Below are positions 48,252-52,098 of a stretch of 64,000 nt of DNA, piece by piece. The notes under the pieces were generated by a model that worked only from the letters and a program-made list of their open reading frames with translations, did no database searches and was not told where the DNA came from. Numbering within the stretch: the stretch's first letter is position 1; each line of letters begins with the position of its first letter. The position numbers and the translations under genes were made by a program. Where the stretch lies: the NCBI RefSeq assembly GCF_024213555.1, contig NZ_JANAVO010000001.1:1116001-1180000 (forward strand), in the 5' to 3' direction. The DNA is from Allokutzneria sp. A3M-2-11 16 (lineage in GTDB: Bacteria; Actinomycetota; Actinomycetes; Mycobacteriales; Pseudonocardiaceae).

Positions 48252-49067
48252 TCAGGCGGGGATCACACCGCCCGGGAAGGTCTTGCCGATGTAGTCCCGC
48301 ACCTGCTGCGAGCGGAGCAGCTCGGCCAGCGCCTTGACCCGCCTGTCCTCGGCCAGCTCCGGCCGGGTGACCAGCAGGTTGGCGTAGGAGTTGCCCTCGG
48401 CCCTCTCCACGGCGAGCGCGGTCTTCAGGTCGAGCCGGGCCTCCAGCTGGTAGTTGCCGTTGACCACGGCGGCGTCGGCGTCGTCCAGGCTGCGCGGCAG
48501 CTGGGCGGCCTCGGTCTCCAGCAGCTCGACGCGCTTGGGGTTCTCGGCCACGTCCTGCTTGGTGGCCTTGGCCTCGGTGCCCGGCTTGAGCTTGATCAGG
48601 CCGGTGGAGGCGAGCAGGTTCAGCGAGCGGGAGAGGTTGCTCGGGTCGTTGGGCAGCGCGACCTTCGCGCCCTGCGGCAGCTCCTCGACCTTCTTGACCT
48701 TCTTGGAGAACACCGCGAGCGGCTCGATGTGCACCGCGCCGACGGACTGGAGCTTGATGTTGCGCGCGCCGGTGAACTCGTCGAGGTACGGCTTGTGCTG
48801 GAAGTAGTTCGCCTCCAGCTGGCCCTCGGCGAGCGCGGTGTTCGGCGTCACGTAGTCGTTGATCTCGACCACGTCGACCTTGATGCCCTTGTCCTTGGCC
48901 AGGTTGTCCGCGACGTAGCGCAGGATCTCGGCGTGCGGGACGGGGCTGACGCCGACCCGGATGGCGGCGTTGGGGTCCTTGGCGGGGTCCGCGCCTCCGC
49001 AGGCGGCCAGCACGAGGGCGCTGGCGGTGACGAGTGCGGCGGCGGCGAGCGTGCGGATACGACGCAT
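48252..49067 (-). CDS. metQ: Methionine ABC transporter substrate-binding lipoprotein
   Basis: A 271-residue NlpA/MetQ-type protein. Signal peptide and lipobox LVLAAC give Cys 23 as the lipid anchor. RVGVSPVPHAEILRYVADNL and GIKVDVVEINDYVTPNTALA, then LEANYFQHKPYLDEFTGA, are the typical MetQ core, and ANLLVTRPELAEDRRVKALA lies near the end. It captures methionine, often D- and L-forms, outside the membrane. It is the third gene of metN-metI-metQ and 24 bp from metI. Confidence 0.93.
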   Translation of the reverse strand: MRRIRTLAAAALVTASALVLAACGGADPAKDPNAAIRVGVSPVPHAEILRYVADNLAKDKGIKVDVVEINDYVTPNTALAEGQLEANYFQHKPYLDEFTGARNIKLQSVGAVHIEPLAVFSKKVKKVEELPQGAKVALPNDPSNLSRSLNLLASTGLIKLKPGTEAKATKQDVAENPKRVELLETEAAQLPRSLDDADAAVVNGNYQLEARLDLKTALAVERAEGNSYANLLVTRPELAEDRRVKALAELLRSQQVRDYIGKTFPGGVIPA

Positions 49068-49091: not shown

Positions 49092-49771
49092 TCAGGCGGT
49101 GACCCGGCGGCGGCGGTCGATGCCGCGGGCGCCGAGGTCGAAGAGGAACTGGACGAGGCGGGCGAAGACGCCGAGCACCACGACGGTGCTGATCAGCACC
49201 CGGGTGTCGAAGCGCTGGTAGCCGTAGCGGATCGCGAGGTCACCGAGACCCCCGCCGCCGACCACGCCCGCCATGGCGGAGTAGCCGATCAGCGCGATCA
49301 CGGTGACGCCGATCCCGGCGACGAGCGCGGGCGCGGCCTCGCGGAGCAGCACGCCCCGGACGATGTGCGGTTTGGTGGCCCCGGTGGTGATCGCGGCCTC
49401 CACGACGGAGGTGTCCACCTCGCGCAGCGCGCCTTCGACGAGCCGGGCGAGGAACGGGATCGCGCCGACCGTCAGCGGGACCACGGCGGCGGTGCTGCCG
49501 AGCGTGGTGCCGACGATCGAGCGCGTCACCGGGAGCAACGCGATCAGCAGGATCACGAACGGCAGTGACCTGCCGACGTCGACGACGAAGTTGAGCACGC
49601 GGTGGGTGAACACCTGGGGGCGCAAGCCTCCCGGAGCGGTCACGTGCAGCAGCACGCCGAGCGGCAGGCCGCCGATGAACGCGAACACGGCGGACAGCGC
49701 CACCATGTAGAGCGTCTCCCACCCCGTTTCCGCGAGCAGCTCAAAAACGGTGGACCAGGGTGTTTCGGTTC

Positions 49772-49775
<4 letters not shown>
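49092..49775 (-). CDS. metI: Methionine ABC transporter permease
   Basis: 227 residues from GTG 49775, which overlaps the TGA of metN. Five hydrophobic spans and the EAA-type loop EAAITTGATKPHIVRGVLLR, which docks on the MetN ATPase, are visible. FVVDVGRSLPFVILLIALLP and ALVAGIGVTVIALIGYSAMA with GVVGGGGLGDLAIRYGYQRF are typical MetI blocks. It forms the channel homodimer of the MetNI importer. Confidence 0.93.
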
Positions 49776-50785
<1,010 letters not shown>

Positions 50786-50802
50786 GATGACTCCATGGCA
50801 CG

Positions 50803-50820
50803 GCCGCCGCTCGTGGCGGC
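50803..50820 (-). other. GC-rich hairpin near the metN ribosome-binding site
   Basis: GCCGCC (50803-50808) and GGCGGC (50815-50820) can pair. On the metN transcript this stem ends 17 nt before the start codon and just above the GGAG, so it could influence ribosome access. Confidence 0.3.
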
Positions 50821-50832
50821 AGCGCTCCGGAA

Positions 50833-50849
50833 CCGTCCTTTGTGGACGG
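50833..50849 (-). terminator. Possible attenuator hairpin between the leader ORF and metN
   Basis: CCGTCC (50833-50838) pairs with GGACGG (50844-50849) around a 5-nt loop. It lies 27 bp after the leader-peptide stop and 48 bp before metN. There is no T tract. The loop and arms coincide with the recurrent 13-mer GTCCACAAAGGAC read on the minus strand. Confidence 0.35.
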
Positions 50850-50875
50850 TGATGGGGTGGGAGGGGGTGAGGCGG

Positions 50876-50989
50876 TCAGGCGTCGGTGCGGGATACGCGG
50901 CGACAGCCACTCACCGTGCGGAGGCACTGGTCGACACAGCGTCGACGAACCAGGTTGGGTCGACGTGCGGACATCGGCGGGCGTTGCAT
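50876..50989 (-). CDS. 37-residue cysteine-containing leader peptide upstream of metNIQ
   Basis: A short ORF from ATG 50989 to TGA 50876, with GGAG (50998-50995) 5 nt before the ATG. It contains cysteines 18, 22 and 29 in the segment VRRRCVDQCLRTVSGC. This arginine-rich, VD-then-Cys pattern resembles the small leader peptides found upstream of sulfur-assimilation operons in actinobacteria, where ribosome stalling on Cys codons controls the downstream genes. It lies between the SAM riboswitch and metN. Its GGAG overlaps the 3' strand of the riboswitch P1 stem, so the two elements are probably linked. Translation is inferred, not shown. Confidence 0.65.
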   Translation of the reverse strand: MQRPPMSARRPNLVRRRCVDQCLRTVSGCRRVSRTDA

Positions 50990-50991
50990 GA

Positions 50992-51085
50992 GGACTCCAT
51001 CGGTCCTGGCGGTAGCACCTGCCCGTTTCCGGGTGGTTGCTGCGGCGTCGCTGAGCCAGGTCTCTCGGCCGCTCGGGATGGATTG
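50992..51085 (-). promoter_or_regulatory. SAM-I (S-box) riboswitch upstream of metNIQ
   Basis: Read on the minus strand, the aptamer runs from about 51085 to 50992. P1 is TCCATC (51082-51077) with GATGGA (51001-50996). The core holds GAGCGGCCGAGAGACCTGGC, GACGCC, the invariant GCAACC (51040-51035), a short P3 hairpin (ACCCGGAAACGGG) and GGTGCTA (51019-51013). These match the S-box consensus in order and spacing. SAM binding stabilises P1 and is expected to reduce expression of the methionine importer. Confidence 0.88.
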
Positions 51086-51231
51086 CTGCGGACAGTAGAA
51101 CCGACGAGGACGGACAGAGGCAAGTCGTTTCGCGTCTCGAACACTGGATCGTTCGACACATCACACTCACAGCCGAACGCCCTGGTAAACGCCCCGATAC
51201 GCCCAGTTATTCCCGAATGGTGATACCGGGC

Positions 51232-52098
51232 TCAGCCTGAGGTACGGGCTTCCGCGATCCGGGCGAAGTCGGCGACGTCGAGCTGCTCCCCGCGCGTGGA
51301 CGGGTCGACGCCCGCCGCGACGAGGTAGCGCTCGGCCAGCGCGGCCGATCCGGCCCAGCCAGCCAGTGCGGCCCGCAGCGTTTTGCGGCGCTGCGCGAAA
51401 GCCGCGTCCACCAAGGAGAAAACGGCTCCACGGTCCACTGTGGACGGTGGGTCGCGGCGCACGAAGGACACGAGCGCGGAGTCGACGTTGGGCACCGGCC
51501 AGAACACCGCGCGCGGCACCGGCCCGGCCCGGCGCACATCGGCGTACCAGGCGGCCTTGACGCTGGGCACGCCGTAGATCTTGCTGCCGGAACGCGCGGC
51601 CAGCCGGTCGGCGACCTCGGCCTGGACCATCACCAGCCCGCTGCGCAGCGACGGCAGCTCGGCGAGCAGGTGCAGCACGACCGGCACGGACACGTTGTAG
51701 GGCAGGTTCGCCACGAGCGCGGTCGGCGGCTGCGGGAAGTCCGCGGCGGTGACCCGCATCCCGTCGGCGGGCAGCACGGTCAGCCTCTCCGCCAGGCCGG
51801 GAGCCTGCTCTGCGGCGGTGCGCTCCAACCGGGACGCGAGGACGGGGTCGATCTCCACGGCCACCACGGCCTTGCAGGCGTCGAGCAGCGCGAGCGTCAG
51901 CGACCCGAGCCCCGGCCCGATCTCCAGCGCGACGTCGTCGGCGGTGAGGTTCGCCCCGGAGACGATCCGGCGCACGGTGTTGGGGTCGTGCACGAAGTTC
52001 TGGCCCAGCTTCTTGGTGGGCCGAACCCCCAGCTCCTCGGCCAGTCGCCGCACGTCGGCGGGCCCAAGCAGCCGCACACCCTGCACCCGCTCATCCAC
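51232..52098 (-). CDS. rsmA: 16S rRNA (adenine1518-N6/adenine1519-N6)-dimethyltransferase
   Basis: A 288-residue KsgA-type methyltransferase acting on the 3' hairpin of 16S rRNA during small-subunit assembly. [20 protein letters not shown] opens the domain, the SAM site is [17 protein letters not shown], and the target-base motif is [37 protein letters not shown] is in the C-terminal part. GTG 52098 is the start. It is downstream of tatD and rpfB across repeat copy 5. GTCCACTGTGGAC lies at 51433 in the sequence encoding PPSTVDRG. Confidence 0.96.

Follow-up and report, generated by a model that had tools for sequence, protein, structure and literature searches.

Riboswitch-controlled upstream open reading frames (uORFs) have been described in Mycobacterium tuberculosis, in the accessible parts of two papers, for B12 at ppe2 (PMC11260477) and for Mg at the pe20 Mbox (PMC12810186). 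The locus studied here lies in a window of 64,000 nucleotides (the whole stretch of DNA analysed) from Allokutzneria sp. A3M-2-11 16, ahead of the methionine transporter operon metNIQ. It resembles the mycobacterial cases in that there too, as far as these accounts go, a translational riboswitch hides the Shine-Dalgarno (SD) sequence of a uORF ahead of an operon, with Rho being involved in the Mbox case. However, at the metN locus the SD lies in the P1 stem of a SAM-I riboswitch and belongs to a Cys leader, whereas the two mycobacterial riboswitches have other ligands and the same accounts describe no amino-acid sensing.

Cysteine-rich leader ORFs are cysteine-responsive attenuators in M. smegmatis according to the accessible parts of two papers (PMC13236596, PMC9094748), and they resemble the metN leaders described below, being short leader ORFs with Cys near the end, located ahead of sulfur genes. 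However, the mycobacterial ORFs are polycysteine, whereas a single Cys is kept in the metN leaders. The Cys-responsive leader sORFs of mycobacteria reportedly go back to Canestrari 2020, the title of which is said to call them leaderless; therefore, they would not be gated by a riboswitch. The leader family Ms5788A (NF042933) presumably stems from the same work.

Actinobacterial Cys leader ORFs were already predicted in 2005, with an output that is unclear in the accessible part of the paper (PMC1262725). The metL leader of Streptomyces lividans is described, in the accessible text, as a short ORF upstream of metNIQ in which Cys residues are clustered, like that of the window, but it is leaderless, Met- and Thr-rich, and the S box in that account stands before threonine genes instead of metNIQ (PMC8079986). 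In the odc1 motif of alphaproteobacteria, the predicted ribosome-binding site (RBS) of a conserved uORF is part of P1, as it is here, but that motif, in the portion of the paper at hand, is distinct from SAM-I, has an 11-residue peptide and is associated with different genes (PMC8632094). No description of SAM-I gating a Cys leader was found in the literature searched, from which subscription papers were mostly absent, so that this is weak evidence; riboswitch-controlled uORFs and Cys leaders are known separately, and on that evidence their pairing is apparently new.

Here, we explore the metN locus and its relatives, and we think it rather probable that metNIQ is controlled by a two-stage leader, in which SAM acts as the gate, cysteine is then read at the leader, and full expression is reached when both are low.

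The SAM-I element and the SD of the leader

A preliminary description, made from the letters of the window, had placed an S-box aptamer ahead of metNIQ. The aptamer is detected by RF00162 (SAM-I) at 50994-51084 on the minus strand with 60 bits, compared with a gathering score of 44.4 (cmscan), and the domains of MetN, MetI and MetQ are found downstream. The features of the riboswitch and the operon are as follows.

51092 to 51097, minus strand: TACTGT, likely -10 element (by eye)
50994 to 51084, minus strand: SAM-I (S-box) riboswitch aptamer (RF00162)
51077 to 51082, minus strand: 5' strand of P1, UCCAUC (CCAUC without variation in 39 aligned aptamers)
50996 to 51001, minus strand: 3' strand of P1, GAUGGA, overlapping the leader SD (GAUGG without variation in the same 39)
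50995 to 50998, minus strand: leader SD, GGAG, with the ATG 5 nt downstream (sequence)
49772 to 50785, minus strand: metN, methionine ABC transporter ATPase, GTG start (PF00005, ABC_tran; PF09383, NIL)
49092 to 49838, minus strand: metI, permease (PF00528, BPD_transp_1); the true start may be further in
48252 to 49067, minus strand: metQ, NlpA-type lipoprotein (PF03180, 281 bits)

The leader stop is followed after 90 nt by metN, then by metI and metQ, and rsmA lies upstream. The best NCBIfam match of the metN product is TIGR02314 (MetN), under its cut-off. The consensus of the -10 element is TANNNT. Since TACTGT is seen by eye just ahead of the aptamer, transcription probably begins with the aptamer; the similar motifs TCTACT and TGTACT occur ahead of the aptamers of many relatives, and a scan of 50700-51250 for the sigma-70 consensus found none.

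In P1, UCCAUC (51082-51077) pairs with GAUGGA (51001-50996). Because GGAG (50998-50995) is the SD, the letters GGA are common to the 3' strand of P1 and the SD; thus, the coordinates agree with the preliminary description, in which the aptamer end GATGGA overlaps the GGAG of a 37-residue ORF. Either GATGGAG or GATGGGAG is found at the leader SD in all of the 50 parsed metN loci. The loop-junction pseudoknot CUGG/CCAG is present as well, the CTGG and GCCAGG columns being invariant in 39 aptamers and complementary by reading. The P1 strands CCAUC/GAUGG (alignment columns 5-9 and 88-92) show zero variation in these 39 aptamers, although the SD needs only its GG; as P1 never varies, its covariation support is none.

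MetN was searched for in 60 genomes of the GTDB family of the window (46 genera), and the upstream DNA was read at 54 metN loci from 53 genomes and 41 genera, leaving out seven genomes whose best MetN match had an E-value of 6e-72 or weaker. Of the aptamers read, 39 were used to construct a covariance model, R1. It finds SAM-I ahead of metN at 53 of the 54 loci, the exception being the second MetN copy of one genome; this is a count and no independent test, because 35 of the 53 sat in the alignment of R1 itself. The Rfam model RF00162 is detected in 295 of 297 genomes of the family.

The same genome carries a second SAM-I element (G000:C11:3474421-3474551), the aptamer match of which ends, by reading, in GATGAGGA at the SD of the following gene. 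That gene, which by reading resembles one for threonine synthase, comes immediately after the element, and its SD is located where P1 ends.

The overlap of P1 and SD, which the preliminary description had regarded as notable in itself, is real, but it is the ordinary translational platform of the SAM-I elements here; the unusual point is that the platform governs a leader peptide and not a gene. Consequently, SAM would decide whether the leader is read. The gating of leader initiation by SAM follows from the anatomy, with SAM binding itself presumed, and so does the proposed order, SAM first and leader second, since the SD lies within P1. By anatomy and coding conservation, the locus has what characterizes a riboswitch-controlled uORF, that is, the SD of a conserved coding uORF within a ligand-stabilised helix. 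SAM-I would thus be added to the small number of riboswitches that are known to act on a uORF and not on a gene.

The leader peptide and its conserved core

Then, is the leader a real coding sequence, and what does it keep? Three features are needed here.

50876 to 50989, minus strand: leader peptide ORF, 37 codons, ATG start, MQRPPMSARRPNLVRRRCVDQCLRTVSGCRRVSRTDA
50930 to 50932, minus strand: codon 20, Asp, nine residues ahead of the conserved Cys (invariant in 41 leaders selected by eye; 50/50 where the pattern demanded it)
50903 to 50905, minus strand: codon 29, UGU, sole conserved Cys and presumed regulatory codon

At 53 of 53 metN loci with SAM-I, the riboswitch is followed by a leader that shares the core of the window's leader (44 plus 9, in two parsing rounds), so that the arrangement extends to related genomes and is wider than the single locus first described; since the species are related, these locus counts are not independent. 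Over 50 leaders, the pN/pS of the core is 0.094 in frame versus 2.7 and 4.5 in the other two frames, and the pairwise identity at codon positions 1, 2 and 3 is 0.77, 0.84 and 0.43. Therefore, the leader is under selection as a coding peptide. That it might be a chance reading frame within the expression platform of the riboswitch, a view for which it can be said that the peptide of the window alone matched no family in NCBIfam and Pfam, is contradicted by the in-frame pN/pS and by the leader at every SAM-I-bearing metN locus, and we give it practically no weight.

The consensus of the leaders is LTRRRVVDxxRRTxxxCR; the peptide of the window has Leu in place of Arg at -6. It should be noted that the search patterns for metN leaders demanded R-13, D-9, Arg (or Lys, in the nine-locus round) at -5 and the Cys, so that the invariance of these residues is partly by construction. 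However, none of the SAM-I-bearing metN loci failed the pattern, the UGU codon was in no pattern, and R, D, R and C are all invariant in the 41 leaders that were selected by eye and not by pattern. Residues kept without being demanded are L-16 (49 of the 50 leaders), T-15 (45) and T-4 (47). As the Arg codons use many synonyms, selection acts on the peptide. The stretch ahead of the core varies in sequence and also in length, the longest ones having about 70 residues and the shortest only a few. Strong conservation could also be expected if the leader product were itself a functional small protein; yet what is conserved is chiefly the 17-residue segment that ends with the last Cys, with N-termini and tails varying freely, and the same core occurs ahead of unrelated genes, which makes this explanation very improbable.

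The preliminary description had presented the ORF as a leader with three cysteines. The ORF is real, but only Cys29 is conserved: at the position of the first Cys of the window, 44 of 50 leaders have V, and at that of the second, C occurs in 30 and G in 19. A three-cysteine codon counter is thus ruled out. The conserved Cys is encoded by UGU in 79 of 79 metN leaders (the 53 above, 6 met along the way and 20 from four genera, all in agreement). For comparison, UGU makes up 25 of 201 Cys codons in long ORFs nearby (86 ORFs, 30 of the loci), the Cys seven residues before the conserved one is UGC 23 times and UGU 7 times, and the remaining leader cysteines are UGC 15 times and UGU 13 times. Because only the last Cys is kept, with Arg and Asp at fixed distance, the leader is not a plain counter of Cys codons. 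With conserved residues that should sit inside the exit tunnel and a codon that does not change, the leader resembles a stalling peptide more than a codon counter.

In a refinement of the two-stage model, the nascent leader chain itself would arrest the ribosome at UGU, and the signal would be something other than Cys-tRNA, for instance free cysteine or a different sulfur metabolite. The exit tunnel would hold the conserved residues, which lie at positions -16 to -4 relative to the Cys, and the invariant R, D, R and C of the leaders selected by eye, the unforced L-16, T-15 and T-4, the many Arg synonyms and the N-termini variable in length and sequence would all be in keeping with arrest. However, descent from a leader sensing Cys-tRNA could give the same pattern, and we regard the refinement as possible though rather unlikely.

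To which family does the leader belong? NF042933 matches 17 of 41 metN leaders (best E 8.7e-5, with E up to 10 allowed). NF042934, a putative leader peptide family, has a similar core (RRHVDLxR...C), and its profile matches end at the same Cys, but it reaches only 1 of the 41 (E 0.01). Neither the peptide of the window nor the metN leaders reach the curated NCBIfam cut-off for Cys leaders; on the scale of these leader scores, E 2.5e-7 corresponds to 30.3 bits, compared with a cut-off of 45. The profile of the metN leaders, however, aligns with that of SAM-gated leaders of other lineages over 20 gapless columns (hhalign 90.1%, E 1.6e-6), in line with the mention of actinobacterial Cys leaders in the preliminary description, and 4 of 8 scanned SAM-gated leaders of other lineages reach the NF042934 cut-off. 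Judging by these profiles, the core of the metN leader is related to leaders elsewhere, some of which are annotated as actinobacterial leader peptides.

The genome of the window also has a second related leader, MYVWLTKRRVVDHCRVRSSLCRL (G000:C11:1533916-1533984), ahead of a DUF4395 gene; it has no visible SD and is apparently leaderless. Among the relatives, related leaders with no SAM-I in view precede symporter, DUF4395 and, by reading, rhodanese-like genes, and the last Cys of the leaders with no SAM-I in view is UGU in 10 of 10. UGU leaders ahead of a gene for a sodium:dicarboxylate-type symporter, again with no SAM-I in view, were observed at three loci, L131 (family-tested), L133 and L134.

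From the leader to metN

The region between the leader and metN contains the following features.

50836 to 50875, minus strand: C-rich, G-poor stretch past the leader stop, candidate Rho-loading site (putative function, from base composition)
50832 to 50850, minus strand: hairpin ACCGUCC-ACAAA-GGACGGU (MFE fold; similar ones seen by eye at other loci)
50792 to 50831, minus strand: local hairpin with the metN SD, UGGA, paired with UCCG (MFE fold)

In the two-stage model, ample SAM would let the aptamer keep P1 closed over the leader SD, so that the leader would not be translated and metN would be off. When SAM falls, ribosomes would enter the leader, and their progress at the single UGU would report cysteine or Cys-tRNA, with the Asp and Arg at fixed positions of the nascent chain possibly assisting there. 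A ribosome stalled at UGU would most likely keep metNIQ on, either by masking the C-rich candidate Rho-loading stretch, whose first nucleotides would lie under a ribosome halted close to the stop, or by changing the RNA structure in which the metN SD is held, whereas a ribosome that finishes and departs would allow metNIQ to shut. Consequently, metNIQ would be fully on only if SAM and cysteine are both low. It is the sensing of cysteine, the sign of its effect and the Rho or structural output that we infer here; low SAM with low cysteine is favoured because of the reported behaviour of mycobacterial Cys leaders and because methionine import would serve both needs. If the model is true, SAM and cysteine, the two ends of a pathway, are read in ordered logic on one transcript, and an RNA sensor decides whether the peptide sensor is used at all. 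A ribosome stall close to the stop codon also protects the neighbouring RNA from Rho in the E. coli tna operon, where the leader peptide is TnaC, and the proposed metN leader would block Rho in the same manner; however, TnaC senses free tryptophan and works without a riboswitch.

A classical attenuator is not supported, as no intrinsic terminator (hairpin plus U run) was found in 50700-51250. As for RNA structure, the opening energy of the metN RBS is 12.86 kcal/mol, compared with 10.93 (sd 2.7) when the upstream sequence is shuffled (48 loci, 288 single-base shuffles). A mask representing a ribosome stalled at UGU lowers it by a mean of 0.52 kcal/mol versus 0.17 in shuffles, and by more than 1 kcal/mol in 10 of 48 loci versus 14.6% of shuffles, while opening becomes harder by more than 0.5 kcal/mol in 10 of 48 loci, including that of the window (11.95 to 12.89). 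The mask for a ribosome at the stop codon, run without a shuffled control, gives a mean drop of 0.50, exceeding 1 in 17 of 48 loci. Pairing between leader and RBS is no better within a species than after swapping species (1228 of 10000 permutations were as good), and RNAalifold within three genera gives two-sided changes in 4 of 61, 0 of 50 and 1 of 83 pairs. As the masking, swap and RNAalifold tests gave no support, an attenuator structure is not demonstrated. A single common helix between the leader and the metN RBS was not supported, the swap test being not significant, the masks being little better than in shuffles and RNAalifold being weak. Nor was a hand-drawn helix in the genus of the window, CUCC-GCACGG of the leader with CCGUGC-CAU-GGAG at the metN SD: the MFE fold favours the local hairpin, and this helix was not found by eye in the other genera viewed. 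The unpaired probability of the metN SD is 0.10 at the locus of the window.

As for Rho, the 40 nt past the leader stop have C 0.448 and G 0.186, compared with C 0.336 and G 0.327 in the leaders (50 loci pooled). The same stretch after 19 leaders elsewhere has C 0.413 and G 0.243, compared with C 0.379 and G 0.341 after 179 long ORFs. By base composition, this C-rich stretch would fit a Rho-dependent output.

It is also conceivable that the leader only couples translation to Rho, or aids re-initiation, with SAM as the sole input and no sensing of cysteine. The C-rich stretch and the folding tests, in which no stall-dependent structure was found, agree with such a design, as do the uORFs of M. 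tuberculosis at ppe2 (PMC11260477) and at the pe20 Mbox with Rho (PMC12810186), which the accessible parts of these papers do not describe as amino-acid sensors. However, it leaves unexplained why UGU is kept in all 79 leaders and why the core residues persist amid synonymous drift. In addition, the distance from the leader stop to the metN start, 62-145 nt where measured and 175-227 nt in one genus, is long for re-initiation. We therefore consider control by SAM alone unlikely and retain the two-stage model.

A palindrome, GTCCACNGTGGAC, occurs in 5 copies in the window (9311, 19606, 21428, 30298 and 51433), compared with 0.03 expected, and at 417 sites of the genome, compared with 0 for the reversed control. 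The hairpin between the leader and metN is a near copy of it, and an exact copy is present there in a sister species.

SAM-gated leaders ahead of other genes

Could the pairing of SAM-I and Cys leader occur beyond metN? Model R1 has matches in 116 of 296 genomes of the class, and 30 R1 loci were inspected, two of which belong to the family. Among the other 28, SAM-I is followed by a Cys leader in 3 (L153, L155 and L159); the remainder mostly start a gene directly, often a threonine-synthase-like one by reading, with one unparsed and one misplaced.

A pattern scan for SAM-I in named genomes gave at least 80 loci (82 matches), and leaders beyond metN were found with the pattern D..R.....C near the ORF end. 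Among the matches listed, 18 of 81 non-metN SAM-I elements lead straight into such an ORF, compared with 62 of 20000 random windows, which come from the same loci and include the true leaders. When the tail limit is dropped, the matches listed comprise 19 leaders out of 82, 28 direct genes and 34 others, with 1 set aside. The 18 carriers among the matches listed belong to Rhodococcus and Rhodococcoides (9), Pseudonocardia (2), Nocardia, Plantactinospora and five uncultured organisms; uncultured carriers of the SAM-gated leader include Actinomycetales, Kineosporiaceae and Nanopelagicales. In eight named genomes with 20 SAM-I loci, a leader is present at 9 and none at 6, with 5 unparsed; six of these genomes were picked for carrying a leader, and 5 of the 9 leaders repeat loci of the pattern scan.

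The conserved Cys is UGU in the 23 aligned leaders beyond metN (L155 and L159 by eye). Behind eight SAM-gated leaders are genes for four ABC importer parts, a flavin reductase, a luciferase-like monooxygenase, a nitrite/sulfite reductase and a GNAT acetyltransferase. The overlap of P1 and SD is common but not universal, since the SD only adjoins P1, and is not inside it, in L155, L219 and L229. To judge from these sequences, the pairing of SAM-I and Cys leader recurs ahead of other transporter and sulfur genes of actinobacteria.

We propose, tentatively and with rather less than an even chance of being right, a widespread actinobacterial module in which SAM-I licenses an arrest peptide, D-x2-R-x5-C, that would stall the ribosome at the invariant UGU, with cysteine or a related metabolite of sulfur as the signal. 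If so, RNA and peptide sensors acting in series would adjust importer and sulfur-assimilation genes to two metabolites from the same pathway, and some genomes would have two or more copies of the module. As the leader recurs ahead of genes of several kinds, with constant D..R.....C spacing and an unvarying UGU, this is a sharp, testable claim on cysteine sensing.

Two further observations were made. At locus L320 (G436:C4:119500-136500), SAM-I riboswitches occur three times in 17 kb, twice with a Cys leader, and genes that read like ABC transporter parts lie nearby. In Cellulomonas (L214, L236 and L247), SAM-I is followed by a mini-ORF, MSQT(L/S)CL..., with a UGU codon, which is possibly another Cys mini-leader; in L214 and L247, the mini-ORF shares sequence with a longer ORF, which is metF-like by reading.
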